Shown here one piece after another: positions 4,777-23,050 of a DNA stretch of 64,000 bases. Source of the DNA: Cypionkella psychrotolerans (GTDB lineage Bacteria > Pseudomonadota > Alphaproteobacteria > Rhodobacterales > Rhodobacteraceae); the NCBI RefSeq assembly GCF_001294535.1, contig NZ_LGIC01000061.1, forward strand, positions 1 through 64,000, given 5' to 3'. Made by a program: the position numbers and the translations under genes. Each line of letters starts with the position of its first letter. Within the stretch, counting starts at the first letter, position 1. Under the pieces are notes generated by a model. The model did not search any database. It saw nothing but the letters and a program-made list of their open reading frames with translations, and was not told the DNA's origin.

Positions 4777-5361
4777 ATGCAGGGAAAAATTCGTTTGCAA
4801 ATGGTGGTGGCGCTCGCGTTGCTCGCACAGCCCGCATTGGCGCATACCGGCGAGGATGTTGGCGGGTTTATGACGGGGGTGATGCACCCGATCTCGGGCC
4901 TTGATCACGTTGCGGCAATGGTTGCGGTTGGGTTGTGGGGTGGCATTCTTGGCAAGCCGGCGCTGTGGTTGTTGCCTATCACGTTTCCGTTGGTGATGTG
5001 CGTGGGTGCAACGCTTGGCATCGCAGGCGTGCCGTTTCCGGCGGTTGAAACCGGCATCGCGCTGTCTGGCGTCGTGCTTGGCGCAATGGTTTTGTTCGCG
5101 CTGCGCCCGCCTTTGTGGTTGGCGATGGCGATGGTCGGCATTTTCGCGATGTTCCACGGCTATGCTCATGGGGCGGAACTGCCGACCTCGGCCAGCCCGA
5201 TTGGTTATGCCGCGGGCTTTGTGCTGGCCACAAGCACTCTGCATCTGATCGGCATCGCGATTGGTCAGCTTTGGCAATGGCGCAGCGGCAAGGTTGTTGT
5301 GCGGGCGGTTGGCGCGGCTATCGCGCTGGCAGGTGGCGCTTTTCTGACCGGTTTGGCATGA
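4777..5361 (+). CDS. HupE/UreJ-family membrane protein (first copy)
   Basis: A 194-residue inner-membrane protein with a cleavable or first hydrophobic segment ending in PALAHTGED. It then has the family hallmark HPISGLDHVAAMVAVGLWGG and about five more membrane helices with the paired motif MFHGYAHGAELP. The His/Asp pairs in GLDH and HGYAHG are the presumed metal ligands. HupE and UreJ proteins are nickel (or cobalt) permeases. Substrate is not shown here, and no hydrogenase or urease gene is in the window. An ATG at 4777 preceded by GGGAGA is preferred over far-upstream starts that would add an unrelated basic leader. It overlaps the next gene by ATGA. Confidence 0.85.
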   Translation: MQGKIRLQMVVALALLAQPALAHTGEDVGGFMTGVMHPISGLDHVAAMVAVGLWGGILGKPALWLLPITFPLVMCVGATLGIAGVPFPAVETGIALSGVVLGAMVLFALRPPLWLAMAMVGIFAMFHGYAHGAELPTSASPIGYAAGFVLATSTLHLIGIAIGQLWQWRSGKVVVRAVGAAIALAGGAFLTGLA

Positions 5362-5963
5362 GACTGCGCGTCGGCGTCGTTTTACTGGCGCTGACGCCAC
5401 AGGCTGCCGCTGCCCATGGCACGCTTGCGGGTGGTGGTGGGTTTTATGCCGGGATTGAGCATCCGTTTCTCGCTTGGGAGCATACGATATTGCTGATCGG
5501 CCTCGGGCTACTGCTTGGGCGTTTGGGGCGTATGCGCGCGCGGCTGCCGTTGTGCGGCTTGCTGATCGGCCTTGGCGCGGGGTTGATCTTTGGCCCAGCC
5601 TTGGGCTTCCCGGGGTCCGGTGTTTCGATTTTGCTGTTGGCGATGCTGGCGGGTGCTATCGTTGTGCTGATGCTGCCTGTGCCGATGCTGCTGCTTGCGG
5701 TGCTTATGCTAATGGGTGGTGTGGCGGTCGGGCTGGACACTGGGGTGCCACCGCCGCCTGATATGACGGCAATCGAGCTTTATGCGCCTTATCTCGGCGT
5801 CGTGGTGGGGGTATTCCTGATCGTGCTGAACGTGATGGCGCTTGCCTCGCTGGCCACCCGCCCGCCCTATACTATCGCCGTGCGTATGGTGGGGTCTTGG
5901 ATCATTGCCATCGCCATGATGGTGTTGGCGCTGCATTTGCGTCAAATCACCGGAGCGGTATGA
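5358..5963 (+). CDS. HupE/UreJ-like membrane protein (second, divergent copy)
   Basis: A 201-residue protein with a signal-like start (TPQAAAAHGTLAGGGGFYAG) followed by EHPFLAWEHTILLIGLGLLLG and about five further hydrophobic helices. The layout mirrors the preceding HupE-type protein: a His-containing stretch just after the first hydrophobic segment (EHPFLAWEH) and regular helices. However, the later HGYAHG motif is missing, so its metal-binding ability may differ. The start overlaps the previous stop (ATGA), which implies translational coupling, and its stop overlaps the next start. Membership in the HupE/UreJ superfamily is inferred from the motif and the operon. Confidence 0.65.
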   Translation: MRLRVGVVLLALTPQAAAAHGTLAGGGGFYAGIEHPFLAWEHTILLIGLGLLLGRLGRMRARLPLCGLLIGLGAGLIFGPALGFPGSGVSILLLAMLAGAIVVLMLPVPMLLLAVLMLMGGVAVGLDTGVPPPPDMTAIELYAPYLGVVVGVFLIVLNVMALASLATRPPYTIAVRMVGSWIIAIAMMVLALHLRQITGAV

Positions 5964-7186
5964 TGATGGGTCGAGGTTTGCACTATAGCCCCGGTTTTCG
6001 TCTGGCTGCGACGACGGTGCTAGCCTTTGGCCTTGTTGTGGGCATGGTCGCGCTGCAAACGCCGCAGTCGAACACGCGCCACACTGGCCACCGTGATCCA
6101 GCCGAGGTGGTGGCCACGCTGCATACGGGGGGGCGCAGCTATCCCGCTGCGCTGCGCGATTTGCTGATTGCCGCTCGTGCCGCACCAAATGATATAATCG
6201 CCGCCAAGGCCGCCGCGCGCGCCCTGATTGATGAGGGCCGAACTGCGGGCGACAGTCGCTTGGTTGGCGCCTCGCTGGGCGTATTGCGGCCCTTCATGGC
6301 GGCGGATGATGCCGAGATTTTGACGCTTGCCGCCACCGCGCGGCAGTATCAGCATGACTTTCTAGGTGCGCTGATGCTGCTGGACCGTGCTATCGTGCTG
6401 AATCCGCGCGATGCAAATGCGCTGCTGATCCGCGCCACCATCCATATCGTGCGCGGTGATTTTGCGACAGCCGAGGCGGATTGCCAGAGCATCAGTGCCC
6501 TGCAACGGCCCGATCTAGGCTTTTTGTGCGTAGCGACCGCCGAAACCATGACCGAGCGTGCGCCTGCCTTTGCCGACAGGATTGCGAAGGTGATGGCAAT
6601 GCCGCAGGTTTTTGATCCGGCGCTGATCCCCTATGCGCAAAGCCTGCTGGGCGAAATCGCAGCGCTTCAGGGACGAAACGACATTGCAGCGCAACATTTC
6701 ACCGCACTGCTTGCGATGGACCCGTCAGACATCAGGGTGCGTCTGATGCTGGCGGATCTGTTGATACAAGACAGTAAGCATGAGGATGTGTTGGCGCTGC
6801 TGACACCCGCGCCTGACGTGGATGGCGTGCTGATCCGCCGCTACCTTGCGGCCACGTCGCTTAAGCAAGCGGATATCGCCGACCCGGCCAAGGCGGAACT
6901 GGGGCGGCGCGTTCGGCTTAATCTGGATCTTGGCCTGACCGCACATGCCCGCGAAGAGGCGCAGTATTTTCTGCTGGTCGCCCCCGACCCAGCGCAGGCT
7001 TTGGCGCGCGCGCAAGTCAACTGGGCTCTGCAGCATGAAATCGACGATCTGCGCTTGCTGATCGCGGCAGCCGTTGCCGCCGATCAGCCCAAAGCGGCAG
7101 TGCCAGCGCTGGCATGGATGGCCAAGGTCGGAATTGTGGTGCCAACGCTGATCATTCCCGATGCGGTGAGAGAGGCGGCAAAATGA
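5960..7186 (+). CDS. Membrane-anchored TPR protein
   Basis: A 408-residue protein with one N-terminal hydrophobic anchor (residues about 15-33), then an all-helical periplasmic region rich in Ala and Leu. TPR-like repeats are clearest around residues 130-185 (DFLGALMLLDRAIVLNPRDAN, then the next helix pair) and 235-275 (QGRNDIAAQHFTALLAMDPSD). Such repeats bind partner proteins. The position between HupE/UreJ genes, with start-stop overlaps on both sides, suggests an assembly or docking role for these membrane proteins. A TPR gene next to HupE/UreJ and DUF4331 genes is an arrangement I recall from other proteobacteria, but it has no assigned function. Confidence 0.75.
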   Translation: MMMGRGLHYSPGFRLAATTVLAFGLVVGMVALQTPQSNTRHTGHRDPAEVVATLHTGGRSYPAALRDLLIAARAAPNDIIAAKAAARALIDEGRTAGDSRLVGASLGVLRPFMAADDAEILTLAATARQYQHDFLGALMLLDRAIVLNPRDANALLIRATIHIVRGDFATAEADCQSISALQRPDLGFLCVATAETMTERAPAFADRIAKVMAMPQVFDPALIPYAQSLLGEIAALQGRNDIAAQHFTALLAMDPSDIRVRLMLADLLIQDSKHEDVLALLTPAPDVDGVLIRRYLAATSLKQADIADPAKAELGRRVRLNLDLGLTAHAREEAQYFLLVAPDPAQALARAQVNWALQHEIDDLRLLIAAAVAADQPKAAVPALAWMAKVGIVVPTLIIPDAVREAAK

Positions 7187-8274
7187 GGCATGCCTTTGCG
7201 GTAATGATACTCTGCTTGCTGGCTTTTCTTGGCGTTAACAGTGCCCAAGCCCATGAAACCACGCGCTCTTACCTAACCCTGACCCGTGACGGTAAGGCGG
7301 CGGATCTTGGCATCCGGGTGGCATTTCGTGACATCGAAGTCGCCGTATGGATGGATGAGGATCTGGACGGCCAGATCACCTGGGGTGAGACAGAGCGACG
7401 GCTGCCAGCGGTCAGTGCCTATATCGCCTCTGGTCTGACGCTTGAGACCGGCGGTGCTTGCACGCTGACGCAAACCGGGGCTGACACTTCGACCAGCGGC
7501 GGCATTGAATATCTTGATGTCAGCTTTGCCGCCACTTGCCCAAGCGCCATAGCCCCGTTGACCATAGCGACGCGGCTATTCGCCGAGATTGATCCTGATC
7601 ACCGCATGTTCGTGCAATCGTCGATGAACGACACCAGCACCTCGACGTTGTTAAGCCGTCAAGAGCCCTCGGTCACGCTATCGGGCGACAGTGGCGGTGC
7701 GCTGGCGTCTTTCATCAGCTATTTCAAAGCCGGGGTCGAGCACCTGCTGGCGGGTGCTGACCATATGCTGTTCCTGCTGGTGCTGATCCTGCCTGCGGCC
7801 TCCGCAACGGGTTCAGCGAGAACCTCTGCCTTGCGGGTACTGACGGCGGTGACGGGCTTTACCCTTGCCCATGCGGTCACGCTGACGGCTGCGACCACGC
7901 AACTGTTGCGCCCGCCGCCGGATGTGATCAACGCGCTGATTGCCCTATCGATTGCGATAACCGCCGCCGATAATATCCGCCCGTTCATCCCGGCGCCGCG
8001 CGCGGCGGTTGCGGCGTTTTTCGGCATCATCCACGGCTTTGGTTTCGCGTCCGCGTTGGGGGCGTTGCAACTGACGGGGGGCAGTTTCGTGCTGGCGCTG
8101 GTTGGCTTTAATCTTGGCATCGAAGTGGCGCAGATCGGTTTGGTGCTGGTGATGATGCCCGCGCTGTACATGCTGGCGGGTGGGCGGTGGCTGCTGTGGT
8201 TTGGTAGCGGGCTTGCCGGGATCGCAGCGCTTTGGTGGTTCTGGCAACGCGTGCTGCCGTTCTTCCCCGGATGA
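7183..8274 (+). CDS. HupE/UreJ_2-type protein with periplasmic domain and EF-hand loop
   Basis: A 363-residue protein with a signal peptide (VNSAQAHETTRSY), a soluble domain of about 170 residues, then a C-terminal membrane half with six or so helices. That half begins FKAGVEHLLAGADHMLFLLV, the HupE/UreJ_2 signature, and contains FFGIIHGFGFASALG. In the soluble part, DEDLDGQITWGE (about residues 52-63) has every position of a canonical EF-hand calcium loop (D1, D3, D5, G6, I8, E12). The EF-hand suggests calcium sensing or stabilisation in the periplasm. It is the last gene of the four-gene operon, coupled to the TPR gene by ATGA. Confidence 0.85.
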   Translation: MRHAFAVMILCLLAFLGVNSAQAHETTRSYLTLTRDGKAADLGIRVAFRDIEVAVWMDEDLDGQITWGETERRLPAVSAYIASGLTLETGGACTLTQTGADTSTSGGIEYLDVSFAATCPSAIAPLTIATRLFAEIDPDHRMFVQSSMNDTSTSTLLSRQEPSVTLSGDSGGALASFISYFKAGVEHLLAGADHMLFLLVLILPAASATGSARTSALRVLTAVTGFTLAHAVTLTAATTQLLRPPPDVINALIALSIAITAADNIRPFIPAPRAAVAAFFGIIHGFGFASALGALQLTGGSFVLALVGFNLGIEVAQIGLVLVMMPALYMLAGGRWLLWFGSGLAGIAALWWFWQRVLPFFPG

Positions 8275-8301
8275 GATAATTTTAATCGCCGAAACTGGCC
8301 G

Positions 8302-8832
8302 CTAAACTTGAGTCCACAGCCAAACCAGCCAGAATGCCAAGGCAAGCCATGGGCCAAAGGCCAGATGGGCTTGGTGTCTGAACTGCTGCATCAGCAGGGC
8401 TTGGATCAAACCCCCGATTGTGGCCAGCAGCAAAACCATCGGCAGGTTTTGCCAACCCAGCCAAGCGCCAGCCGCCGCAAACAGTTTGGCATCGCCAAGC
8501 CCCAAACCGTCGATCCCGCGCAGGCGAAAGTAAGTTTCGCCCAAACCCGCAAAAAGCGCAAAACCTGCGGTCGCACCGATTATGTGATCCACGGTCAAAG
8601 TTTGCGGATTTACCGCTGCAAGCGCCAAGCCAATGCCAATCAGTGGCAGGCTGAGTTTGTCAGGAATTCGCAAGCTTTTGATATCAAACAATGAAATAGC
8701 CAAAAGCATCACGAACAGCACGATTGTGGCCGCGATAAAAAGACCGGGCGGCAAACTATCAGTGAAAGGTTTAATCACTTTTTCTTGATCCATAAATGTG
8801 AAAAAAAGTGACAAGGGGTGAAACTTAGTCAT
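8302..8832 (-). CDS. gspO: Type IV prepilin peptidase, short form (GspO)
   Basis: An inner-membrane aspartyl protease that cuts the leader of type II pseudopilins. Both catalytic motifs of the A24 family are present: Asp in DIKSLRIPD (about residue 50) and the GxGD-type motif in GLGLGDAKL (about 110). They sit in a chain of about six membrane helices. At 176 residues it lacks the N-terminal methylase and cysteine domain of classical GspO/PilD, like CpaA-type enzymes. Start could be 8832 or the ATG at 8793; neither has a convincing ribosome site. It stands apart from the main gsp genes but is the only prepilin peptidase in the window, so it probably serves GspG-K. Confidence 0.85.
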   Translation of the reverse strand: MTKFHPLSLFFTFMDQEKVIKPFTDSLPPGLFIAATIVLFVMLLAISLFDIKSLRIPDKLSLPLIGIGLALAAVNPQTLTVDHIIGATAGFALFAGLGETYFRLRGIDGLGLGDAKLFAAAGAWLGWQNLPMVLLLATIGGLIQALLMQQFRHQAHLAFGPWLALAFWLVWLWTQV

Positions 8833-8989
8833 ACGCCCGCGCGTTTCTGATCTGACGCGTAGAAATCGGCAATCCTCTGCGTCTCCAAGCGTCGCGTCAT
8901 CTTAGCTGAGTTCACTACGTCGATGATGGTTAATGCGTCTCATAAAGATAATCTTAGTGGCCTCGACATGCCACCCCTCAGGAGGAATT
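8833..8989. promoter_or_regulatory. Divergent intergenic region with strong ribosome site for the DUF4331 gene
   Basis: 157 bp between the divergent gspO and DUF4331 genes, so promoters for both should lie here. The only clear signal is CAGGAGGAATT just before the ATG at 8990, a near-perfect Shine-Dalgarno. It decides that start over the in-frame upstream ATG at 8933. I cannot point to a specific -35/-10 pair with confidence. Confidence 0.5.
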
Positions 8990-10636
8990 ATGAAAGTTAG
9001 AACCCGTTATATGCTCGGGACGATGATGGTGGCTGTGCTTGCAAGTGCAGCGCCCTCGGTCTGGGCTTCAAGCCACAGAGAAGCGCCCGGCATCGCAGGC
9101 ATGCCGCGCGTCGATGCGACCGATTTTTACATGTTTCGCAGCTATGAACCGGGTCGCGATGGGTATGTCACCCTGATCGCGAACTATGTGCCGTTGCAAT
9201 CGCCTTACGGCGGGCCAAACTATTTTGAGCTCGACAACGACGCTGTCTATGAAATTCACATCGACAACGACGGCGATGCAAAAGAAAACCTGACCTTCCA
9301 GTTCAACTTTGACAGTGCGTTGATCGAGGCTGGCAAAGGCAAGACTTATGAGATCGGTGGTGTTTCTGTACCTGGGCCGTTGCGTCAGGCTGGTCAAATT
9401 GGCAGCGCTACCAATGACCCGAACATCAATGAGACGGAATCCTACACCGTCAAAATGATCAGCAATGACCGCCGCAAAGGCACTATTGCGGATGTGACCA
9501 AGGCGGGCGGTTCTAGCAAAGTGTTCGCCAAGCCGATCGACAATATTGGCAACAAGACCATCCCGGATTACAACAGCTACGCCAACAACCACATTTTCCC
9601 GATCACCATTCCGGGTTGCGCACAGCCGGGCCGGGTTTTCGTCGGCCAGCGTGCCGAGGCTTTCGCGGTTAATTTGGGCGAAGTGTTCGACCTTGTGAAC
9701 CTTGTGCCGCTTCAGGGCGCGTCTAACGCGGCTTACCCGCAATACGACACGGCAACGCCCTTTGCCGGCGGCATGGTTCAAGACCGAGCAAACGATGATG
9801 TTGTCGGAGAATCCAACGTAACATCGCTTGCGCTAGAGCTGCCGATTGCTTGCGTCACGGGTGCCGGCAATGGTGTGATCGGGGCTTGGACCACGGCAAG
9901 CCTGCCTCAGGCGCAGTTGCGTGATCCTTCGCCGACTTACAACGGCACCACCCGTCAGGGCGGCGCATTGGTGCAGGTGTCGCGGCTTTCCGCGCCGCTG
10001 GTGAATGAAATCGTGATCGGTTTGAAAGACAAAGATCTGTTCAACGCGGCAAAGCCGACGCAGGACGGCGCTTTGGCGACTTATGTGACCAACCCGGTGT
10101 TCCCGGCTTTGCTCGACGCATTGTTCCGCACCGCAGTTGGGGCGACCTCAAACATCGCGCCAAGCAACTTTCCGCGCAATGATCTTGTCACTGCCTTCCT
10201 GACTGGCTTTCCAGGCGTGAACCAACTTTCCACTGTGACCGGTTCGGAAATGATGCGTCTGAACACCGCCTTCCCGGCAACACCACGGGCAAATCAGAAC
10301 ACCTTTGGACTGGTTGCCGAAGATCTGGGCGGTTTCCCGAATGGCCGTCGTCCGGGCGATGACGTGGTTGATATCGAGCTGCGCGTTGCTATGGGCGCAT
10401 TGTGCCACGATCTGCCGCTTGGTGCTGAGCTTGGTGTTCCCGGTGCAGTTGAAGACACACCGACCGATCTGGTGAACCTGAACTTGTGTGGAGCGGATCG
10501 CGATGCCAGCATGGCTGCCGCTCCCGTTGGTACTGCGGCTTTTACCGATGGTGCGCCGATGAATGCCACCGAACTGCTGAATGCCTTCCCTTATCTGAAC
10601 CCGCCGATCCCCGGATCGCCGAACAACGAGGGCTGA
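8990..10636 (+). CDS. Secreted DUF4331 protein
   Basis: A 548-residue exported protein. The N-terminus is a Sec signal peptide (MKVRTRYMLGTMMVAVLASA, ending PSVWA). It is followed at once by the DUF4331 hallmark SSHREAPGIAGMPRVDATDF, and later by YVTLIANYVPLQSPYGGPNYF, IHIDNDGDAKENLTFQF and GRRPGDDVVDIELRVAMGALC. DUF4331 has no established function. The Asp/Asn-rich segments would suit calcium binding, but that is inference. AGGAGG five bases upstream fixes the start. It lies between gspO and the gsp operons and is a natural candidate for a type II secretion substrate. It is followed by a small lipoprotein gene after 3 bp. Confidence 0.85.
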   Translation: MKVRTRYMLGTMMVAVLASAAPSVWASSHREAPGIAGMPRVDATDFYMFRSYEPGRDGYVTLIANYVPLQSPYGGPNYFELDNDAVYEIHIDNDGDAKENLTFQFNFDSALIEAGKGKTYEIGGVSVPGPLRQAGQIGSATNDPNINETESYTVKMISNDRRKGTIADVTKAGGSSKVFAKPIDNIGNKTIPDYNSYANNHIFPITIPGCAQPGRVFVGQRAEAFAVNLGEVFDLVNLVPLQGASNAAYPQYDTATPFAGGMVQDRANDDVVGESNVTSLALELPIACVTGAGNGVIGAWTTASLPQAQLRDPSPTYNGTTRQGGALVQVSRLSAPLVNEIVIGLKDKDLFNAAKPTQDGALATYVTNPVFPALLDALFRTAVGATSNIAPSNFPRNDLVTAFLTGFPGVNQLSTVTGSEMMRLNTAFPATPRANQNTFGLVAEDLGGFPNGRRPGDDVVDIELRVAMGALCHDLPLGAELGVPGAVEDTPTDLVNLNLCGADRDASMAAAPVGTAAFTDGAPMNATELLNAFPYLNPPIPGSPNNEG

Positions 10637-10639
10637 TCC

Positions 10640-10870
10640 ATGACACGGAAAGGAAAACTGCTTTCGACCTTTGCAGCTTCGTTGGCTTTGCTGGCGGCCT
10701 GCGATGGCAGTGATGGCGTGATGGGAAATCCGTCGGCCCAATTCGGCAACCAATTCGCCGCGGCTTTCAACGCGAAACCTAACGCCGCTGCGAAAGATGA
10801 TCCCAATCTGGTCATCACCTACAAAGGCGTGACCGGGGTGAACTACACGGCGGACCCGCTAGATATCTAA
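10640..10870 (+). CDS. Small lipoprotein
   Basis: 76 residues. Lys/Arg-rich start (MTRKGK), hydrophobic core and lipobox LLAAC with Cys at about residue 21, so the mature lipoprotein has only about 55 residues. It is rich in Asn, Ala and Gly and has no domain I recognise. It is only 3 bp behind the DUF4331 gene and just before a terminator, so the two are co-transcribed. Small lipoproteins in this place could help secretion or anchoring of the DUF4331 protein, but this is a guess. Confidence 0.75.
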   Translation: MTRKGKLLSTFAASLALLAACDGSDGVMGNPSAQFGNQFAAAFNAKPNAAAKDDPNLVITYKGVTGVNYTADPLDI

Positions 10871-10875
10871 ACTTT

Positions 10876-10903
10876 AGCCCCCGTAGCTTTGGCTGCGGGG
10901 GCT
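10876..10903 (+). terminator. Hairpin terminator after the DUF4331-lipoprotein operon
   Basis: AGCCCCCGTAG pairs with CTGCGGGGGCT (11 bp with one G-T pair) around a 6-base loop, six bases after the lipoprotein stop. The run of T afterwards is short (CTTCATT). It lies upstream of the convergent gspK end and can serve as the boundary between the two transcripts. Confidence 0.8.
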
Positions 10904-10955
10904 TCATTGAATGATGGCGGCGGTTTCTGACGGCCGCCATTTTCATATCGTGCTG

Positions 10956-11840
10956 TCAGGGCGCTGCGGCGTATTTGGGCGGCTCTACGGTGCCCAGCGG
11001 GTTTTGCCGGAAGATCGCCTCCACTTCCGGCCCGCCACGCGCGGTGCTGCGCTGCAAAAGTGTCTGCATCCGCTGTGCCGTATCTGCGATGGTGACACTG
11101 GTTGTCACCTCGAAATAGCGAGAGACAAAGCCAACACCCGGCGCCAAGATCACCCCCGCAGCGGTCAAATCGGCTGCGGTCAGAAAGCCTTGGCGCTTGC
11201 GAATGCCCTGCAACCTGCCAGCCTGAACCGGATTGTCGGTGATCACTGCAAGTAAGGCTGCGGGCGCGGTGTTGATGTTGATATCGGTGCGTCCGGGCAG
11301 AACGGTGGCAAGTTGCGACAGCCGTGCCACTTCGTCGGGTGTTAACCCCGCTTCGGCGACCAGATCGGCCATCCGCACCAGGGGTTGCGGCTGCACCAGC
11401 CTTGCCGCGATGCGCGGGGCAACATCGGCAGGCAAATCAAGGCGTTTCACAATACGTTGCAAAATTTGCGCGCCAAGTGCGCCACTCAGCGGCAGATTGT
11501 TCAGATTGAACCGACTTTGCGCATCCTCAATCTGCAACGCGAAGGTGCCGCCTGCAATTTGCACCTGTTGCTGTCCGACCAAAGCCCAAACCTCGGTCAT
11601 GTTGTCGGTGGTGGGGGCCACTGTCATATCGCGGCGCAGCGCTACGATGGCACTCGCCTCGCCACCCGAGATCAGCGCAAGCGCTTGGCCTGCCGAACTG
11701 AAGCGTTGGCTGCGCAGGATCGCAAGATCAGACAGGCTGATCATCGCGTAAACCACCGAGGCAGTCAGTGCCAGAATGACCAGAACGTTGATCAGTACAA
11801 CGCCGTTTTCCGCTGTGCGCTTTTCTGTTGGCCGCGCCAT
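10956..11840 (-). CDS. gspK: Type II secretion minor pseudopilin GspK
   Basis: About 294 residues. Basic leader MARPTEKRTAENG, then hydrophobic helix VVLINVLVILALTASVVYAM. The residue at +5 is Asn, not Glu; lack of Glu5 is normal for GspK, the tip subunit. It is followed by the large globular domain with QIEDAQSRFNLNNL and the helix-hairpin-like ININTAPAALLAVI. GspK caps the pseudopilus with GspI and GspJ. ATG at 11840 is preferred; an in-frame TTG at 11846 overlaps the gspJ stop. It is the last gene of a minus operon with gspJ and the LpoA-like gene. Confidence 0.9.
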   Translation of the reverse strand: MARPTEKRTAENGVVLINVLVILALTASVVYAMISLSDLAILRSQRFSSAGQALALISGGEASAIVALRRDMTVAPTTDNMTEVWALVGQQQVQIAGGTFALQIEDAQSRFNLNNLPLSGALGAQILQRIVKRLDLPADVAPRIAARLVQPQPLVRMADLVAEAGLTPDEVARLSQLATVLPGRTDININTAPAALLAVITDNPVQAGRLQGIRKRQGFLTAADLTAAGVILAPGVGFVSRYFEVTTSVTIADTAQRMQTLLQRSTARGGPEVEAIFRQNPLGTVEPPKYAAAP

Positions 11841-11842
11841 GA

Positions 11843-12445
11843 TCAACGCGCCTCGCCAGGCAACACCACGACGCGGCGCAGGTGATTGCCGTTTTCTGCC
11901 AACGTCACGGTGAGGGAAATTGCCAACGGGTTAGGGGTTGCTTGGCCGGGTAAGATCACCCGATCAGCGGGCGGCCAAACCGACCCCCAGCCGCCACTGG
12001 CTGCGTAAAACTGCCATTCAACCGCAGCCACGCCATGCAACAGCGGTTGACGCGCCGGATCTGAGCCGGCTTTTGCCGCAATATCACGGAACAGGGTATC
12101 TTGATCCACTTCGTAGCGCAGATTGACGCTGCCGCCCGCAGCATCGGCTGCGTTGCGTTGCAGGCTGACAGATGCCGCCCCCGCTGCCGCATCTGTCGGG
12201 GGTGGGTCTAGCACCAACGAGCTGTTGCGCGCTTGACTAAAATCTAACGTAATCAGGTGCATCGCGCGTTGCAATTCGGCCAACCGCTCTAGCCTGCCTT
12301 CGGTCAGACGCTGGGTGCGCAAAACCTGATCCAGCATCGAAAACCCGGCAACACCGATCAGCGCAAAGATTGCCAAGGCCACCAGAACCTCAACCAGAGA
12401 AAAGCCGGCCATCGGGTCGCGCCGTGTGGCCAGGGGCTTTTTCAC
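11843..12445 (-). CDS. gspJ: Type II secretion minor pseudopilin GspJ
   Basis: A 200-residue pseudopilin with leader MKKPLATRRDPMAG, cleavage before Phe, and helix FSLVEVLVALAIFALIGVAG with the conserved Glu at +5. The remaining 160 residues form the globular minor-pseudopilin domain (VLRTQRLTEGRLERLAELQRA, then WQFYAASGGW). GspJ joins GspI and GspK in the tip complex. The start overlaps the stop of the upstream LpoA-like gene (ATGA), so it is translationally coupled to it. Confidence 0.9.
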   Translation of the reverse strand: MKKPLATRRDPMAGFSLVEVLVALAIFALIGVAGFSMLDQVLRTQRLTEGRLERLAELQRAMHLITLDFSQARNSSLVLDPPPTDAAAGAASVSLQRNAADAAGGSVNLRYEVDQDTLFRDIAAKAGSDPARQPLLHGVAAVEWQFYAASGGWGSVWPPADRVILPGQATPNPLAISLTVTLAENGNHLRRVVVLPGEAR

Positions 12446-13536: not shown

Positions 13537-14273
13537 ATGGCTGGCGGCGAGTGGCGCTTTGGTCATTGGTCGTGCTCCTGGGTATTGCGGCGTTTTTAGG
13601 CTCGGTCATCACTTATATGCCTGCGCGCTTTGCGGCGGAACAAATCGGCTTGCCGTCAGACAAGGTGCAGGTGTCAGGTACGATTTGGAATGGATATTCG
13701 CGGTTGGGCGACGCCCATGTGCTAACTTGGCAGACATCGGGTTGGGAAAGTTTGCGCCGGATGGCCGTTGTGGTCAACTGGCACCTGACCGGACCGCAGA
13801 CTGATCTGATGGGACGTGTTGCGGTGCCGTTGCCGCCAGAGCCCAATCGTGCTGAATTGGATGCGGTGCGCGGCAGTATCGGCTGGCCATTGGTCGAATT
13901 GGCATTGCCAGATCTGCCGATCCGCTGCGATGCAACTGCGGTTTTCGATGGCTTGCAGATCAAGCTCATCCCCGGCGTTAGGCAGGGTGACGGCATCATT
14001 TCAACCTCACCGGGCCGTTGCGAACGCCTTGATGCCGACATGCCCGCCGTACCGACGCCTGCGTTAAGTGCCGCCATTAGTTTTGACAGCGACGGGCTGG
14101 TGGCGGTTCTGGTGCAAACAGATCTGCCGCAAACAGCGCTTGCGACCCTGCGGCTGAGCAACGCCGACCGCATCATTGTGACCATCCATCCAGCCGGTGC
14201 GGCCTTGGTGCCGGGGATGCCGTCAAGTGCCGATTCAGAGATCGAATTGCCCTTGGCGACGCTGTTCCCCTAA
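13509..14273 (+). CDS. gspN: Type II secretion protein N (GspN)
   Basis: 254 residues with one N-terminal membrane helix (WRRVALWSLVVLLGIAAFLG), then a beta-rich periplasmic domain with VQVSGTIWNGYSRLG, typical of GspN. GspN is an accessory inner-membrane or periplasmic subunit, dispensable in some systems. ATG at 13509 is preferred to the TTG nine bases earlier. The gene points against its neighbours: its start overlaps the start of the LpoA-like gene head to head, and its stop is 6 bp from the convergent end of gspF. So it needs its own promoter inside the neighbour's coding sequence. Confidence 0.85.
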   Translation: MSDQTNDGSYGWRRVALWSLVVLLGIAAFLGSVITYMPARFAAEQIGLPSDKVQVSGTIWNGYSRLGDAHVLTWQTSGWESLRRMAVVVNWHLTGPQTDLMGRVAVPLPPEPNRAELDAVRGSIGWPLVELALPDLPIRCDATAVFDGLQIKLIPGVRQGDGIISTSPGRCERLDADMPAVPTPALSAAISFDSDGLVAVLVQTDLPQTALATLRLSNADRIIVTIHPAGAALVPGMPSSADSEIELPLATLFP

Positions 14274-14279
14274 GCGCCT

Positions 14280-15527: not shown

Positions 15528-15529
15528 CG

Positions 15530-17017
15530 CTATGCCTCTTGCGCCACACGGGCGACGTCTTCAACCGTTGTCACACCCGCCCGGATTTGCCGCAAGCCAT
15601 CGGCAATCAATCCCGGCCCGTCCAGCCGCGCCTGTGTAGTCAGATCGGCCTCTGATGCGCCCGCATAAATCAAAGCCTCGATCTCGCGGTTGATTGCCAC
15701 AACTTCATAAATACCCGACCTGCCGCGATAACCTTGACCCTGGCAGGCAGTGCAGCCGCAAGCGCGAAACAGCGCGTCGCCCACATTCAGCCCTTCGATC
15801 AGGGATGCGTCGGTCGCTGTCGCCGTGTCTTGCATCCGACAATCCGAGCACAAGCGCCGCACCAACCGTTGTGCCACCACGCCCACCAACATCGGTGCCA
15901 ACAAAAACCGCTCGACCCCCATATCGACCAACCGAGACACTGCCCCCACCGCCGTGTTGGTGTGCAAGGTGGACAGCACGAAATGCCCGGTCATCGCCGA
16001 TTCAACGGCGACTTGCGCGGTTTCGCGGTCGCGGATTTCGCCGACCATGATCACATCAGGATCTTGCCGCAAAATCGCCCGCAAACCGCGCGCAAAGGTC
16101 AGATCAGTGCGCGGATTGACCTGCATCTGGCCGATGCCATCGACCGAATATTCAATCGGGTCTTCTACTGTCATGATGTTCCGGCTTAGATCATTCAGAT
16201 GATCGAGTGCGGCATAAAGCGAGGTGGTTTTGCCCGAACCCGTCGGCCCGGTGACCAAAAGCATACCATCAGGGCGCGCCAACAATCGGGCGAACACCTC
16301 AGCATCGCGCGGCGACATGCCCAGCCGGTCTAAGCCGAACCGGGTGGCGTCGCGGTCCAGCAGGCGCATCACCACCCGCTCGCCATACTGCGACGGGATT
16401 GTCGAGACGCGAACATCCACCTCATGCCCACCCACCCGCAGCGACACACGACCATCCTGCGGCAAGCGTTTTTCGGCAATATCAAGCCGCGCCATCACCT
16501 TGATCCGACTGACCAGCAACGGGGCGAGCGAGCGCTTTGGTTCGACCATCGAACGCAGCACCCCATCAATGCGAAACCGCACCAGCAGTTTACGCTCTTG
16601 GGTTTCGATATGGATATCCGAAGCGTTTTCCTTGATCGCCTCCAGCAACAGCGCGTTGATCAGGCGGACAACCGGGGCATCCTCGGATTGATCCAGCAGA
16701 TCATCGACTTCGGCGGTGCGGTCGGCAAGGCTGGCCAGATCATCATCCGCGCCAGCCGCATCCGACGCATCGCTGGCATTGTCGCGGTAGGCGGCGGCCA
16801 AACGCGCATCAAACAGCGCCTCTGACAGTGGCTCCAGCCGCAAACCTTTGCCTGCGACGCGCTGCACCTCGATCAGCGCGGAGACAGTGGCGGCAGGCCG
16901 CAGCACGCAAACCGGTCCCTCTGGCCCGGTTTCCAGCAGCACGCCGTGCTGGCGGGCAAAGGCATAGGGCAGGCCCGCACGGCGGGGCGGCGGCGGTGTG
17001 ATCTGCGCATCTGCCAT
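15530..17017 (-). CDS. gspE: Type II secretion ATPase GspE
   Basis: 495 residues. Cytoplasmic hexameric ATPase that powers pseudopilus assembly. Walker A is GPTGSGKTT (residues 257-265), the Asp box follows at MTVEDPIEY, Walker B is DVIMVGEIRD (321-330) and the His box is TLHTNTA. The zinc-type cysteines lie at about 390/393 and 422/425 (CSDC and CTAC). It is shorter at the N-terminus than enteric GspE, which may alter docking to GspL. It sits between gspM and gspF with 2-bp gaps. Confidence 0.95.
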   Translation of the reverse strand: MADAQITPPPPRRAGLPYAFARQHGVLLETGPEGPVCVLRPAATVSALIEVQRVAGKGLRLEPLSEALFDARLAAAYRDNASDASDAAGADDDLASLADRTAEVDDLLDQSEDAPVVRLINALLLEAIKENASDIHIETQERKLLVRFRIDGVLRSMVEPKRSLAPLLVSRIKVMARLDIAEKRLPQDGRVSLRVGGHEVDVRVSTIPSQYGERVVMRLLDRDATRFGLDRLGMSPRDAEVFARLLARPDGMLLVTGPTGSGKTTSLYAALDHLNDLSRNIMTVEDPIEYSVDGIGQMQVNPRTDLTFARGLRAILRQDPDVIMVGEIRDRETAQVAVESAMTGHFVLSTLHTNTAVGAVSRLVDMGVERFLLAPMLVGVVAQRLVRRLCSDCRMQDTATATDASLIEGLNVGDALFRACGCTACQGQGYRGRSGIYEVVAINREIEALIYAGASEADLTTQARLDGPGLIADGLRQIRAGVTTVEDVARVAQEA

Positions 17018-17019
17018 GA

Positions 17020-17499
17020 TTATCTTTCCAACGCGAAGGTTGTGGTGACAACGCCGGGGGCGGGTCTGCGGGTCATTTCAAGATCGCTGACAGACAGACC
17101 ATGTTCGCGTTTCAACGCCTCAAGCCACAGGATCACCTGATCAAAACTTGCTTCTTCCAACACCACCCGCGCGCCACCGCCCTCGGCCTCAAGCCTGCGA
17201 ATAACCAGTTGAGCAGTGGCGGCGGAATCGGTCAAGATCACCGGGACAGGGCGGTTGTCCACGATGGCAGCCGCAGCGCCGCCCGCCGCAAAAGCCGGGT
17301 TTTCCAGTGCCGTCAGCCCCGCGTCATACAGCGCAATCTTGTTTACCAGATCGGTCCGGTACTGGCGCAACGGTTGCCAGATAAGTGCGACACCGACCCA
17401 TAGCAGCGCGCAGGCTGACAAGACCCCCAACAACAGCCGTTCGCGCGCCGTGCGTTGCTCAAACCAATCCTGCGCGAGGGCGAAGTATTTGTTGGTCAT
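17020..17499 (-). CDS. gspM: Type II secretion protein GspM
   Basis: 159 residues with the usual layout: short cytoplasmic head (MTNKYFALAQDWFEQRTARE), one membrane helix (LLLGVLSACALLWVGVALIW), then a periplasmic ferredoxin-like domain ending in a strand with VTTTFALER. GspM pairs with GspL in the inner-membrane platform. The start overlaps the end of gspL by 4 bp. Confidence 0.9.
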   Translation of the reverse strand: MTNKYFALAQDWFEQRTARERLLLGVLSACALLWVGVALIWQPLRQYRTDLVNKIALYDAGLTALENPAFAAGGAAAAIVDNRPVPVILTDSAATAQLVIRRLEAEGGGARVVLEEASFDQVILWLEALKREHGLSVSDLEMTRRPAPGVVTTTFALER

Positions 17500-18662
17500 G
17501 GTCTGCCTTGCCGCAAAGTCATCTGAACCTCGGCAGCGCCATCGCCCGACGTGGCAGCCCCCGCAATCACCCCAAGCCCTACCGCGCTAAACGCTGTCTC
17601 GGCCGTTTGCAGCGCGGCAAGATCAGGCGCCTCCATCGTCAAAGCCAAGCTGTCGTCGGCCTTGGAAAACCGCAAAGCCTTGATCTGAACTGTGCCCGTC
17701 TGCGGCTGCAACGCGCCAAATGCCTGCGCCAGCAAAGGCAAAAGCCGCCCCGCGCTTGCAGGTTGCTGCGCCGCCAGTACCGAAGTCAGTGCTGTGGCCA
17801 CGTCGCCCTCAACGCTTTGGCCATGCGCCTGCATCGCCGCACGCACAGCATCCTCTTTGGCCGCCAAGATGCCATTCAAGCCTACGACATCCAGCCCAAG
17901 CAGCGTCATATGCCCAATCGCGGCAATCGCCAGAATGATGCCCAACATCCGCGCGTCTTTCGGCAAACCTGCGCGCCGCCGCGCAAAGCGGCCAGAGCGC
18001 AGATCAAACCCCTTCAGCCGAGGATCAATCACGGGGGTAAGTTGGCCGTGCGAAGTCACCGTAACTTCGGTAGGCAGATTGCCGCCGAGCAGCATTACCC
18101 CCGGCGCTCCGGCCGATTTCCACAAGGTTGGCAGCATTGAGGTCGCCGCCGCAAAACCAGTGCCATCTGCCATCCGCACCAGCGCGCGATCTTGTTGCGC
18201 CAGCACCGCCCAATGGCCTCGCTCTGGCACTTGCAGCGCCAAAACATCTGGCAGAACAGCCTCAGCGCTGTCAGGCATCGCTGCAATCAGATCCGCCATC
18301 ACCGTGGTGCTGACCACCGCAACCAGCCATGATCCAGCGTTAGTCGCATCATTCAGCTGCGGCCCTAAGACAATATGAACCTGATCCAAAGGCTGGGCAA
18401 TCAACTCCTCGACCGCGAAGCCCACCACAGCACGCCGCTGGGTTGCGGCCATTTTCGGCAAAGTGACATTCAGCAAAAGCACATCTTCACTGGCTATCCA
18501 ACGGGGGACACCAGCGACAGCAAAGGTGTTCGCGGCGATCACAGCCGGAGCCAGAAACGGGGCACTATCTTTTTTCAACGCAGTTTTCGGGCGCAAGCGC
18601 GACGGCCACAAAAACCGCAGCGAAGGACCAAGCGCGCCGCTTATGCTTTTGTGATCAATCAT
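17496..18662 (-). CDS. gspL: Type II secretion protein GspL
   Basis: About 388 residues. The cytoplasmic actin-like half (residues 1 to about 230, with VGFAVEELIAQPLDQVHIVLG) recruits GspE. The single membrane helix DARMLGIILAIAAIGHMTLLG is at about 240-260, and the periplasmic half ends in a ferredoxin-like domain. ATG at 18662 gives a normal N-terminus; AGAGGAG lies about 13 bases upstream, further than ideal. It is the first gene of the minus operon gspLMEF and is divergent from gspG. Confidence 0.85.
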   Translation of the reverse strand: MIDHKSISGALGPSLRFLWPSRLRPKTALKKDSAPFLAPAVIAANTFAVAGVPRWIASEDVLLLNVTLPKMAATQRRAVVGFAVEELIAQPLDQVHIVLGPQLNDATNAGSWLVAVVSTTVMADLIAAMPDSAEAVLPDVLALQVPERGHWAVLAQQDRALVRMADGTGFAAATSMLPTLWKSAGAPGVMLLGGNLPTEVTVTSHGQLTPVIDPRLKGFDLRSGRFARRRAGLPKDARMLGIILAIAAIGHMTLLGLDVVGLNGILAAKEDAVRAAMQAHGQSVEGDVATALTSVLAAQQPASAGRLLPLLAQAFGALQPQTGTVQIKALRFSKADDSLALTMEAPDLAALQTAETAFSAVGLGVIAGAATSGDGAAEVQMTLRQGRP

Positions 18663-18779
18663 GTTGTCACATCGGCTCCTCTTTGAACGCACACGCTGCA
18701 ATATTTATGATACGAAGTGAAACCAAATAAGTTGCAACGCGTATGTCAGATATAGGTGTCCTCAAGAACGGATGTAAAG
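18663..18779. promoter_or_regulatory. Divergent promoter region between gspL and gspG
   Basis: About 117 bp separate the gspLMEF operon from gspGHICD, and transcription of both must begin here. It is AT-rich compared with the flanking genes, with TTATGATACGAAG and GTATGTCAGATATAGG as possible promoter elements. I cannot assign boxes reliably. Confidence 0.4.
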
Positions 18780-19298
18780 ATGATCGCGTTGGCCAAGCTG
18801 TTCTCGATCCGTATCAAAAGCTTGCGGCAAACTTTGTCGGCTCGGTTGCCTGTTGCATCGACACAGGCTAAGCGGGCGCACGACAGCGGCGTGACGCTGA
18901 TCGAAATGATGGTTGTGCTGGTGATCATCGGCATCGTCGCGGCCTTGGTTGTGCCCAATGTTATCGGCAGACCCGATGAGGCGCGGGTGGCCGTGGCAGG
19001 CGCGGATCTGCGCAGTGTTGCCGCCAGCCTTGAGATGTACCGACTGGACAACCGCACTTATCCGACCACAGAGCAAGGCTTGGCGGCGCTCAGCGAGCGA
19101 CCTTCAGCAGCACCGCTGCCGATCAGTTGGGCAGCGGGCGGCTATTTGCCATCGCCACCGGTAGACCCTTGGGGCCATCCCTACATCTACACGTCGCCCG
19201 CCGAAAACGGTCCCTACGAATTGATCTCGAACGGTGCGGATGGTGTGCCCGGCGGCGAAGGTGCAAATGCTGATATTCGCCATGGCGCGACCAACTGA
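18780..19298 (+). CDS. gspG: Type II secretion major pseudopilin GspG
   Basis: 172 residues. The pseudopilin helix VTLIEMMVVLVIIGIVAALV carries Glu at +5 and is followed by the GspG pattern: DLRSVAASLEMYRLDNRTYPT, EQGLAAL, GYLPSPPVDPWGHPYIY, and a C-terminal calcium-site-like segment. Two oddities: the leader before the Gly cleavage residue is about 37 residues instead of 6-15, and the first mature residue is Val rather than Phe or Met. A GTG at 18756 would lengthen it further. GspG builds the pseudopilus shaft. The stop overlaps the gspH start. Confidence 0.93.
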   Translation: MIALAKLFSIRIKSLRQTLSARLPVASTQAKRAHDSGVTLIEMMVVLVIIGIVAALVVPNVIGRPDEARVAVAGADLRSVAASLEMYRLDNRTYPTTEQGLAALSERPSAAPLPISWAAGGYLPSPPVDPWGHPYIYTSPAENGPYELISNGADGVPGGEGANADIRHGATN

Positions 19299-19822
19299 TG
19301 ACGGTGCAACCGCACCCAGCGATCCCGCCAAAGAAGGTGCGGCTTGGCCGGGAAAGCGGATTAACGCTTGTCGAAATGCTGGTGGTCTTGGCGGTGATCG
19401 GGGTTGCAACTGGGGCAACCATGCTGGGGTTGAATGCCGCCGACAGAGGATCACGGGCGCAAACAGAAGCGGTGCGGCTGGCAAGCAACCTGTCGCTTGG
19501 GGTGGATGAGGCCATGGTCGCAGACACCCCACTTGCTTTGATCTGGGATGCCGACGGCTACAGCTTTGCGGCATGGTCTGAGCCACAGAGCGATTGGCAG
19601 CTGGCCATGCCGGGTATTTTGGGCACGCGGCATGACTTGCGCGACCCATTACAGCTTGTGATTGAAGGCAAGGACAGCAATGATCCAATCATGATAGAAC
19701 CCAGCGGCTTGGGCCCGCCGATTATGTTTGTGTTTTCGTCGGCATCTGATGCCAACAGCGCCGCATGGGTTGTGGATTTTGATGGCTTTTCGGCGACGGC
19801 AAGGCCGAAGGAGGCGATGTGA
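19298..19822 (+). CDS. gspH: Type II secretion minor pseudopilin GspH
   Basis: 174 residues. Leader MTVQPHPAIPPKKVRLGRESG, then LTLVEMLVVLAVIGVATGAT with Glu at +5, and a beta-rich globular domain of about 130 residues with LPLGVDEAM-type helix end and a terminal VVDFDGFSATARPKEAM. The start shares bases with the gspG stop (TGATG) and the stop overlaps gspI. GspH links the tip complex to the shaft. Confidence 0.88.
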   Translation: MTVQPHPAIPPKKVRLGRESGLTLVEMLVVLAVIGVATGATMLGLNAADRGSRAQTEAVRLASNLSLGVDEAMVADTPLALIWDADGYSFAAWSEPQSDWQLAMPGILGTRHDLRDPLQLVIEGKDSNDPIMIEPSGLGPPIMFVFSSASDANSAAWVVDFDGFSATARPKEAM

Positions 19823-20199
19823 CCCAGACCCGCAGCCCCGACGCAGGCTTTACCCTGATCGAGACGCTGGTGGCGCTGGTTATTCTGGCGATGTCGGCGA
19901 TTTCGCTGTTGGGCGCGACCGAGGCGCATATTGGCAGGATCGGGGCCTTGGAAAATCGGGCTGCGGCACAATGGGTGCTGGAGAATTATTTGGCCGAACT
20001 GACGCTCGGCCTGTCGCCTGTGACGGCACCCGATGCCATGAATGGCGTGAGTTTTAGCGTCGAGGTCAACAACACCCCGACGCAAGACCCTGATCTTGAA
20101 CAGGTTGACCTTGTGGCGCGGGATGCAACAGATGGGCGCGAGTACAACCATCTGATCGGCTTTGCCGATATGGCCGCCAAAAACCGGCTGTCGCAATGA
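19819..20199 (+). CDS. gspI: Type II secretion minor pseudopilin GspI
   Basis: 126 residues. Short leader MTQTRSPDAG, cleavage before Phe, helix FTLIETLVALVILAMSAISL. Then the conserved GspI pattern: ENRAAAQWVLENYLAELTLG and a short beta domain with FSVEVNNTPTQDPDLEQVDL. With GspJ and GspK it forms the pseudopilus tip, although those two genes lie in another operon here. It overlaps gspH by 4 bp. Confidence 0.9.
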   Translation: MTQTRSPDAGFTLIETLVALVILAMSAISLLGATEAHIGRIGALENRAAAQWVLENYLAELTLGLSPVTAPDAMNGVSFSVEVNNTPTQDPDLEQVDLVARDATDGREYNHLIGFADMAAKNRLSQ

Positions 20200-20212
20200 G
20201 CGGGGTTTCTCA

Positions 20213-21055
20213 ATGATCGCGCGCATTCCGAAACTGCCGATCTGGGCGCTGGCGGCGGCAACCTCGATTTCGCTGGGCGCATCGGCCGGGCCAGTGTTCT
20301 GGCGGGTTAGCGGTAACGATGCAGGCGTGCGTACGGCGTCAACTCAAACCCCATCTGCCGAAGTCGCACGCTTTGATCTGACGCCGATTCTGAGCTTCAT
20401 GCCCTTTGGCACTTCGGTCGTGCAAGCTCCGGTGCAGGAACTGTCGGGCGAAACCAGTCTGGGGCTAGTTCTGCTTGGCGTCACGCTTGCACAACCCGCC
20501 TCAGGATCGCGCGCTATCATTGCAGGCGGCACTGGTCCCGCCCGCGCATTTTACATTGACGAGGATATCACCCCCACCGCCACCTTGGCAGCGATCGAGG
20601 CGGATCATGTTGTGTTGGATGTGGGCGGGCGGCTAGAGACTTTGTCCTTCGCCAAGCGCGGTGACGCCGCGGCTGTGGTCAATAATGCTGGCCCTGATCT
20701 ACGCAATCTGATCCCTTCGGCGGCAGCCGCTGCCACACCCGCTGCAGGTTCAAACGAGCCTGACGCCGTTATTGCGCGCTATCGTGCCGCCATCGCAATG
20801 GATGCTCAGGGGGTGCTGGATCGGCTCGGGTTGCAAGCAACTGCTCAGGGCTATCGGGTGACTGAAAACGCCTCAAGCGGTGTCAAGCAGGCAGGCTTTA
20901 AACCTGGCGATGTGGTTACGACTGTGAACGGCCAAAAAGTAGGCGACATCCCGGCAGATCAAAGCTATTTTGATCAAGTGGCCGCATCGGGTCGCGCACG
21001 TGTAGAGCTGCTTCGGGACGGACAGACCATCGTTATGTCCTTTCCTTTGCGTTAA
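20213..21055 (+). CDS. gspC: Type II secretion protein GspC
   Basis: 280 residues: N-terminal membrane anchor (LPIWALAAATSISLGASAG), linker, HR domain with LGLVLLGVTLAQPASGSRAI, and a C-terminal PDZ-like domain (GFKPGDVVTTVNGQKVGDIP). GspC connects the inner-membrane platform with the secretin and helps select substrates. ATG at 20213 is chosen; the ORF extends upstream but would overlap gspI. It lies 13 bp before gspD. Confidence 0.9.
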   Translation: MIARIPKLPIWALAAATSISLGASAGPVFWRVSGNDAGVRTASTQTPSAEVARFDLTPILSFMPFGTSVVQAPVQELSGETSLGLVLLGVTLAQPASGSRAIIAGGTGPARAFYIDEDITPTATLAAIEADHVVLDVGGRLETLSFAKRGDAAAVVNNAGPDLRNLIPSAAAAATPAAGSNEPDAVIARYRAAIAMDAQGVLDRLGLQATAQGYRVTENASSGVKQAGFKPGDVVTTVNGQKVGDIPADQSYFDQVAASGRARVELLRDGQTIVMSFPLR

Positions 21056-21067
21056 TCAGAGGCAGCC

Positions 21068-23050
21068 TTGAAAATACCTTTTGTCATTCTCTCCATCCTG
21101 ATTGCGCTGCTTTTGCAGTTTGCAAGCCCTGCCATCGCGCAGATCATGCCAAAACCAGCGACTTTCGTCATCAACCTGCGCGACGCCGATATTCGCACCC
21201 TGTCAGAACAGGTCTCGGACATCACTGGGCGGACTTTGGTGCTTGATCCGAATGTGACAGGGACTGTCACGGTGATCTCGACCGAACCGCTGAACGTAGA
21301 TGGTGTGTGGGAGCTTTATCAATCGGTGCTCGCAGTGCAGGGCTTTGCGGCTCTGCCATCTGGCAAACTTTGGCGGATCGTGCCGCAAGCCGCGATCCGT
21401 GAGGGCGGCGGTGTGATTGCGAACAGCGATGATATTGGCCGCCTTGACGTTGTCACCAAGCTTGTCCAACTGAAAAATTTCCCTGCGACGACCGCCGTGG
21501 GTGCCTTGCGCCCGCTGGTGGCCAGCTTTGGCTATATTGAGGCAGTGGTAGATACCAACACACTGGTGATCACAGATACCGCAGAAAACGTCCGCCGGAT
21601 CGAAGACATCGCTTTGGCTCTAGACGCCGACACCGGGCAAGAGGTGTTCTCGATCCAAGTCAGGAATGCCGATGTGGTGGCGGTGGGGGCCGCAGTTGAC
21701 GGCGTCCTGAAATCTTCAGGCACCGAAGGCGGCGTGGCGCGCGTCACCGTCGATCCGCGCTCGAACGTTTTGTTACTGAAATCAAACCGTGAAACCTATG
21801 AAATGGTGCAGCGCATCGTGGCCGAGCTGGATGTGCCGGGCAAAGCCATTCCCTCAACCGTGCCGGTGACGCGGGTCTACAAACTGCGTTACGCCGATGC
21901 GACTTCGATGGCTGAGGTTCTGCGCGGCCTGATCGGCTCTGGCAGTGTGGTCAGCAACCCCGTGGCCGAAGCGCTGCCGCCCGACGCTGCAATTGGCGGC
22001 GAGGGTGAACCGGCCGTTGATACGCCCCCAAGCCCGCCGCCCGTGACGTCGCTTGCCGCTGAAGATATCACCATCCAACCAGCCATAGAAACCAATGCGG
22101 TTGTGGTGCGTGCCCGCCGTGAAGTGCAATCTGATCTGGCGGCTTTGATTGCCGAATTGGATCAACGCCGCCCGCAAGTGCTGATCGAAGCCGCGATTGT
22201 TGAAGTGTCAGGCGATATATCAGAGCAACTTGGCGTGCAGCTTGGTTTTGGCAGCGCAGCCCCGCCCGGAGGCTTTGCGGCTACCTCGTTTTCACCGAAT
22301 GGTCCTACTTTGGACAACATTCTCACCTTGCTTGGCTCGCCCGCTGCGGTCGGAGTTGCCGCATCGGGGCTTTCGATTGGTTTGTCGCGGCAGGATAAAT
22401 TTGGCTTGTTGTTACAAGCGCTTGGCCAATCAACCAAAGCCAACCTGCTCTCTACCCCCAGCATCACCACGCTGGACAATCAGGCGGCCGAGATCGTTGT
22501 CGGCCAAAACGTACCGTTCCGCACCGGCACATTCACGGGCAACGGCAACACCCAAAGCACGATTGAGCGGCGTGATGTCGGCATCACCATGCGGGTGCTG
22601 CCAAGGGTAAACCAAGGCGATGTGATCCAGTTGGACATCACCCAAGAAGTCTCCTCCCTCGCCACCGCCGCAGTCGCGGGGGCAGCCGATATCGTCACCA
22701 ACCGCCGCAGCATCAAGACAACGGTTTTGGCGGATAACGGCGGCACCATCGTGCTGGGCGGTCTGATCACTAATGACCGTCAAAGCAGCAGATCAGAGGT
22801 GCCGGGGCTTGGCAAACTGCCGATTGTCGGCGGCCTGTTCCGCTCAAAATCCGACTCATCGCGCAAGCAGACGCTGTTCGTGTTCTTGCGCCCGACCATC
22901 CTGCGGTCGCGCAATGATGTGGCCGCGGTGGCAGACAACCGCTTTCAGCGCCTGAAAGCGATCGAATCCAATCCCGGTGAGCCCAAAAGCCTGCTGGCAG
23001 AACCCAAACCAGTCCGCCGCCTTCCGGTCGAGATTGACGGATTGTATTGA
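21068..23050 (+). CDS. gspD: Type II secretion secretin GspD
   Basis: 660 residues. Start is TTG behind AGAGGCAG; the next codons form a signal peptide (VILSILIALLLQFASPAIAQ). Then come N0 (FVINLRDADIRTLSEQVSDI), N1-N3 repeats, a Pro-rich linker (TPPSPPPVTS), and the secretin domain with VGQNVPFRTGTFTGNGNTQ, GITMRVLPRVNQGDVIQLDI and GGLITNDRQSSRSEVPGLGK. It forms the outer-membrane channel. No GspS pilotin is in the window and the C-terminal tail is short, so pilotin-independent or lipoprotein-assisted insertion is possible. It is the last gene of the plus operon. Confidence 0.95.
   Translation: MKIPFVILSILIALLLQFASPAIAQIMPKPATFVINLRDADIRTLSEQVSDITGRTLVLDPNVTGTVTVISTEPLNVDGVWELYQSVLAVQGFAALPSGKLWRIVPQAAIREGGGVIANSDDIGRLDVVTKLVQLKNFPATTAVGALRPLVASFGYIEAVVDTNTLVITDTAENVRRIEDIALALDADTGQEVFSIQVRNADVVAVGAAVDGVLKSSGTEGGVARVTVDPRSNVLLLKSNRETYEMVQRIVAELDVPGKAIPSTVPVTRVYKLRYADATSMAEVLRGLIGSGSVVSNPVAEALPPDAAIGGEGEPAVDTPPSPPPVTSLAAEDITIQPAIETNAVVVRARREVQSDLAALIAELDQRRPQVLIEAAIVEVSGDISEQLGVQLGFGSAAPPGGFAATSFSPNGPTLDNILTLLGSPAAVGVAASGLSIGLSRQDKFGLLLQALGQSTKANLLSTPSITTLDNQAAEIVVGQNVPFRTGTFTGNGNTQSTIERRDVGITMRVLPRVNQGDVIQLDITQEVSSLATAAVAGAADIVTNRRSIKTTVLADNGGTIVLGGLITNDRQSSRSEVPGLGKLPIVGGLFRSKSDSSRKQTLFVFLRPTILRSRNDVAAVADNRFQRLKAIESNPGEPKSLLAEPKPVRRLPVEIDGLY

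Follow-up and report, generated by a model that had tools for sequence, protein, structure and literature searches.

We propose that the window analysed here, that is, the 64,000 nucleotides at the start of a 360-kb contig in the 5.08-Mb genome of Cypionkella psychrotolerans, contains a locus dedicated to the export of a single DUF4331 protein, in which one lineage of type II secretion system (T2SS) would carry the protein, a small lipoprotein would tether it, and a HupE/TPR set would have an accessory role in metal handling. We give this reading a probability of roughly 0.6. It builds on computed features: gene content, co-occurrence, a genome in which the genes are separated and still jointly retained, and a type IX secretion (T9SS) tail in Bacteroidota.

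Open reading frames and Pfam matches recovered all the genes that an earlier sequence-only reading had named at 4777-23050 (two HupE genes, a TPR gene, a HupE/UreJ_2 gene, gspO, DUF4331, a tiny lipoprotein and the gsp genes). The first four, all on the forward strand, encode a HupE/UreJ membrane protein (PF04955, 4777-5361, 205 bits), a second, diverged HupE-like membrane protein (5358-5963, 31 bits against a cut-off of 23), a membrane-anchored or periplasmic TPR protein assigned by Pfam (5960-7186) and a HupE/UreJ_2 permease with an N-terminal ectodomain (PF13795, 7183-8274, membrane domain 140 bits, cut-off 24.5). They overlap as had been claimed, all three junctions being ATGA overlaps. In both small HupE proteins (4777-5963), histidine is predicted to come first after signal-peptide cleavage. 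Further along lie gspO, coding for an A24 prepilin peptidase (Pfam, 8302-8832, reverse strand), and, divergent from it, the gene for the secreted DUF4331 protein (PF14224, 8990-10636, forward), for which the match is full-length (profile 1-421, 458 bits, over the curated cut-off). A 76-residue lipoprotein (LAAC/D; 10640-10870, forward) follows.

The secretion genes continue with gspK (10956-11846), gspJ (11843-12445) and an LppC/Peripla_BP_6-type lipoprotein gene (12442-13536), all three on the reverse strand and assigned by Pfam, the last being an additional member of the gsp cluster that the first reading did not mention. Then comes gspN (13509-14273, forward), which at 22 bits falls below its cut-off of 29.6 and was assigned also from position and conservation. 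On the reverse strand are gspF (14280-15527), gspE (15530-17017), gspM (17020-17499) and gspL (17496-18701); on the forward strand are the genes for the major pseudopilin GspG (18756-19298), gspH (19298-19822), gspI (19819-20199), gspC (20162-21055, start uncertain) and the secretin gene gspD (21068-23050; TIGR02517, 482 bits, cut-off 351). With the core genes C, D, E, F, G-K, L, M and O all found, and with prepilin motifs kept in G-K, Walker A (GPTGSGKT) in the GspE ATPase and the catalytic aspartates in GspO, the T2SS looks intact as judged by its signatures.

To what extent DUF4331 and T2SS belong together was examined by a neighbourhood and co-occurrence survey with GspD. DUF4331 is rare in this part of the tree: it was detected in 10 of 385 genomes of the class, mostly as weak or partial matches, and in 5 of 149 Rhodobacteraceae genomes, one of these being a fragment at a contig end. 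The four family genomes with a full-length copy all carry GspD over the cut-off, compared with 21/149 overall (P=3e-4). Among an even sample of 299 Pseudomonadota, GspD accompanies all 13 full-length copies vs 163/299 overall (P=3e-4), a test partly confounded by kinship because most DUF4331 genomes lie outside Alphaproteobacteria, in T2SS-rich groups. Moreover, the GspD lineage of the locus, defined by at least 46% identity to the GspD of the window, turned up in 10 of the 395 family genomes searched, every one of which also carries DUF4331. In 19 further Rhodobacteraceae T2SS clusters, a few of them cut by contig ends and one of them a second cluster in genome G001, DUF4331, its lipoprotein, the LppC-like gene, HupE and TPR are all absent. 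Almost every T2SS cluster linked to DUF4331 has the LppC-like gene, whose product may assist the secretin in a peptidoglycan-related way. The association of these families with T2SS is thus conserved past close relatives, the opposite of one outcome that the sequence-only reading had named as a refutation. It also has its limits. Among 45 DUF4331 genomes chosen through loci mostly lacking an adjacent T2SS, GspD exceeded the cut-off in 40; four of the five exceptions have no GspD near the cut-off and one has split matches, so T2SS is not a universal partner of DUF4331. Two of the loci concerned (L057 and L060) also lack the lipoprotein. As a separate observation, L055, L057 and L060 hold DUF4331 without lipoprotein or T2SS neighbours and adjoin genes for a LacI-type regulator, an amidase and an ABC transporter; two of these three genomes are without GspD over the cut-off, and their DUF4331 possibly forms a functionally separate branch.

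With regard to the protein itself, DUF4331 was named in no paper of the open literature searched, and a sequence search against the PDB gave no match, nor did Foldseek return anything at E<=0.001. The predicted structure is confident (pLDDT 89, pTM 0.91). The copy in the window has the predicted mature N-terminus SSHREAP and a calcium-like loop, DNDGD. The motif (S/A)-S-H-R-E-A-P lies directly past a plausible signal-peptidase site in all 79 motif-bearing sequences (two further sequences have no motif), and its first residues are consistent with a predicted ATCUN-type Cu/Ni site. The N-terminal residues are of low confidence in the model and therefore probably flexible. Adhaeribacter DUF4331 may retain residues before SSHREAP, in which case the ATCUN reading would fail there.

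A short lipobox ORF stands 3' of DUF4331 in 73 of the 81 copies scanned. Its middle is variable (proline-rich, Ig-like or nearly absent), and its tail is conserved inside each group, the tail profile matching only these ORFs in the loci. Alpha- and gammaproteobacterial tails align weakly (hhalign P 0.0016, probability 16%), so that a single origin for all of them is no more than suggested. The layout, in which a spacer lies between the lipid anchor and the short conserved tail, suggests a tether, and judged from it the protein, a putative tether or partner, probably holds DUF4331 to the envelope via the tail. A role as pilotin was rejected, the ORF coming after DUF4331 and not after gspD.

Other phyla, where neighbourhoods were read from plasmid records, offer a comparison of export routes. 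DUF4331 is followed by TPR in Miltoncostaea and in Adhaeribacter (Bacteroidota), and by TPR and a 'nickel transporter' in Streptomyces, where a sortase gene adjoins. One Streptomyces copy has a C-terminal membrane segment, and two others match a sortase-type signal below the threshold. At its C-terminus the Adhaeribacter protein has a T9SS type A sorting domain that exceeds both the Pfam and NCBIfam cut-offs, a tail seen in one species in two copies. From such signals DUF4331 appears to reach the surface by a route that differs from one envelope type to another, and this is the strongest indirect argument for T2SS export at the present locus; as a prediction, surface export of DUF4331 is well supported. 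TPR, with a permease, and not T2SS, is the gene class whose position beside DUF4331 is conserved most deeply.

TPR genes adjoin DUF4331 in gamma-, beta- and alphaproteobacteria, Actinomycetota and Bacteroidota, and in an even phylum sample a TPR-HupE_UreJ_2 pair adjoined it in seven of nine loci. HupE1-type genes were found near DUF4331 in L049, L067 and L069, and some 10 kb off in L058; in the nearest congener, G951, the TPR-HupE_UreJ_2 pair comes immediately after gspD, and in two Rhodobacteraceae MAGs (L040 and L041) HupE/TPR genes stand beside gspO. HupE/TPR genes are missing from the surroundings of many Rhodobacteraceae T2SS-DUF4331 clusters, and HupE_UreJ_2 was not found anywhere in the 99%-complete genome G001. 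The set can therefore not be essential for export and is accessory and optional. A hydrogenase or urease role for HupE was rejected, no such genes being present in the locus, as the sequence-only reading had said, and the literature searched held nothing relevant on HupE and UreJ with TPR or T2SS.

The same reading had warned that the metal-permease label may mislead, and HupE/UreJ_2 is indeed no simple permease, since its ectodomain resembles a known metal-binding domain: Foldseek matched it to PDB 9gce (E 1.1e-5, prob 1.00, TM by target 0.54), an entry also hit by a profile that includes three RbAng-1a-like members. The entry is the copper-bound Ang-1 domain, solved in 2025, which binds Cu2+ with a Kd of 74 nM and Ni2+ with one of 220 nM (PMC12537917). 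A histidine predicted directly past the signal peptide (His1, cleavage itself being predicted) is invariant in 16 HupE/UreJ_2 sequences. An EF-hand-like acidic loop (DEDLDGQITWGE in the window) is present in 28 of 37 DUF4331-linked HupE_UreJ_2 proteins vs none of 29 truly unlinked ones, one more copy first scored as unlinked being a G951 gene that adjoins gspD. The loop aligns where RbAng-1a has the copper ligand Asn41, which is poorly conserved (PMC12537917); the window protein has Gln at position 41 in place of this Asn. DUF4198, a secreted nickel binder (PMC12537917), is a recurrent neighbour of DUF4331, absent at the locus of the window; in Paracoccus its gene overlaps the end of gspD, and in G1031 it stands behind an ECF/RskA pair just past gspD. 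ECF sigma genes with RskA or ChrR-type (ChrR-cupin) anti-sigma genes are common near DUF4331, which hints at stress control of the module. The ectodomain likeness, the recurrence of DUF4198 and the predicted ATCUN-type N-terminus of DUF4331 make a metal-handling role of the module plausible.

The direction of metal traffic can be read in another way, namely that DUF4331 is an extracellular metalloenzyme and that the HupE/TPR/ectodomain set supplies it with metal while it is still in the periplasm, ahead of export, rather than taking up metal captured by DUF4331. T2SS carries folded proteins across the outer membrane, which would suit loading beforehand, as would the cross-phylum adjacency of TPR and permease to DUF4331, the acidic loop at the metal site and the stress regulon that the neighbouring sigma and anti-sigma genes suggest. 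However, the many complete T2SS-DUF4331 clusters without HupE/TPR nearby and the absence of HupE_UreJ_2 from G001 tell against it, and so does the proposal that Anglerase permeases import metals (PMC12537917); we hold this alternative to be unlikely. The earlier suggestion of metal loading or partner assembly by the HupE/TPR set is compatible with a module of metal theme, but not as a step essential for export.

With regard to the proposed export locus, the cluster is often found on plasmids, so that transfer as one block could by itself account for the linkage. On either side of it, at 1-831, 26554-27465 and 29548-29937 of the window, are transposase genes or pieces of them (integrase core, IS110/IS116 type, DDE type), consistent with mobility on plasmids. 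The closest named relative by DUF4331 is Pseudorhodobacter sp. PARRP1 (85% identity). On a 32.5-kb plasmid of Jannaschia sp. W003 (L209), a complete T2SS-DUF4331 cluster occupies 7813-22240, about half of the plasmid, with a gsp block order unlike that of the window. If co-occurrence came solely from block transfer of a plasmid-borne cassette, DUF4331 would be a passenger, and the Rhodobacteraceae plasmids that carry the block, the 32.5-kb one included, together with its patchy distribution, agree with this. Yet in G1046 the gspO-DUF4331-lipoprotein unit lies near 567 kb and the other gsp genes near 3-15 kb of the same 710-kb contig, about 550 kb apart: adjacency is gone, gspO still stands with DUF4331, and both the DUF4331 unit and the gsp genes are retained. 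The different position of TPR-HupE in G951 and the T9SS and sortase parallels, which are independent of plasmid linkage, also speak against mere passage, and we regard this explanation as improbable. The claim that DUF4331 is the substrate of the T2SS has strong comparative support from co-occurrence, the GspD lineage, G1046 and the parallels in other phyla. That DUF4331 and the lipoprotein are instead T2SS accessory parts, for example a pilotin-like pair, would fit their tight divergent linkage to gspO and the small lipoprotein as in GspS pilotins, but is very improbable given the occurrence of DUF4331 in Actinomycetota, which have no outer membrane, its T9SS tail in Bacteroidota, its place away from T2SS genes in most gammaproteobacterial loci, and a G1046 lipoprotein that moves with DUF4331 and not with gspD.

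In the preferred reading of a dedicated export locus, DUF4331 would be made with a signal peptide and fold in the periplasm, where it would probably bind a metal or calcium. It would cross the outer membrane via a T2SS lineage which, in the sampled Rhodobacteraceae genomes, is found only with DUF4331. The co-encoded lipoprotein would then probably use its conserved C-terminal tail to hold DUF4331 at the envelope. At the surface, DUF4331 would probably bind or use Cu/Ni via its (S/A)-S-His N-terminus, and the HupE/UreJ_2 ectodomain, with predicted His1 and acidic loop, would hold a transition metal on the periplasmic side of the permease. Export by the T2SS of the locus, tethering, metal binding and the identity of the metal are all steps that we infer.

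If correct, the model gives the widespread DUF4331 family a probable cellular location and pairs it, as cargo, with a specific machine. It would offer a natural example of a T2SS lineage that serves a single protein, which bears on how T2SS recognises cargo, and it would connect the metal-binding permeases described recently with a surface protein, making their physiological role testable. A wider proposal is tentative, and we lean against it: that DUF4331 founds a multi-phylum surface Cu/Ni system, combining an orphan fold and an ATCUN-type N-terminus with unrelated means of export and anchoring (dedicated T2SS, T9SS, probably sortase), a TPR protein and ectodomain permease, and ECF sigma control.

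Among known systems, Anglerase-1 (Ang-1-HupE/UreJ-2) has the same layout, a HupE/UreJ-2 membrane domain preceded by an ectodomain that carries His1; the DUF4331-linked members differ in their EF-hand-like acidic loop at the Asn41 site and in low sequence identity. The nickel-binding DUF4198 proteins share the neighbourhood of DUF4331 but are a different protein. MopE/CorA-type copper proteins of methanotrophs are secreted, and the likeness would lie in the idea of a secreted surface metal-binding protein. In the pullulanase (Pul) T2SS, the cargo gene sits inside its own gsp cluster; the present locus resembles it in having a full gsp set, a gene for a secreted protein and the involvement of a lipoprotein. 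It differs from Pul in that the DUF4331 cargo belongs to an orphan-fold family, that the lipoprotein is separate and tiny, and that its T2SS lineage, which moves together with DUF4331, includes an additional LppC-like gene.
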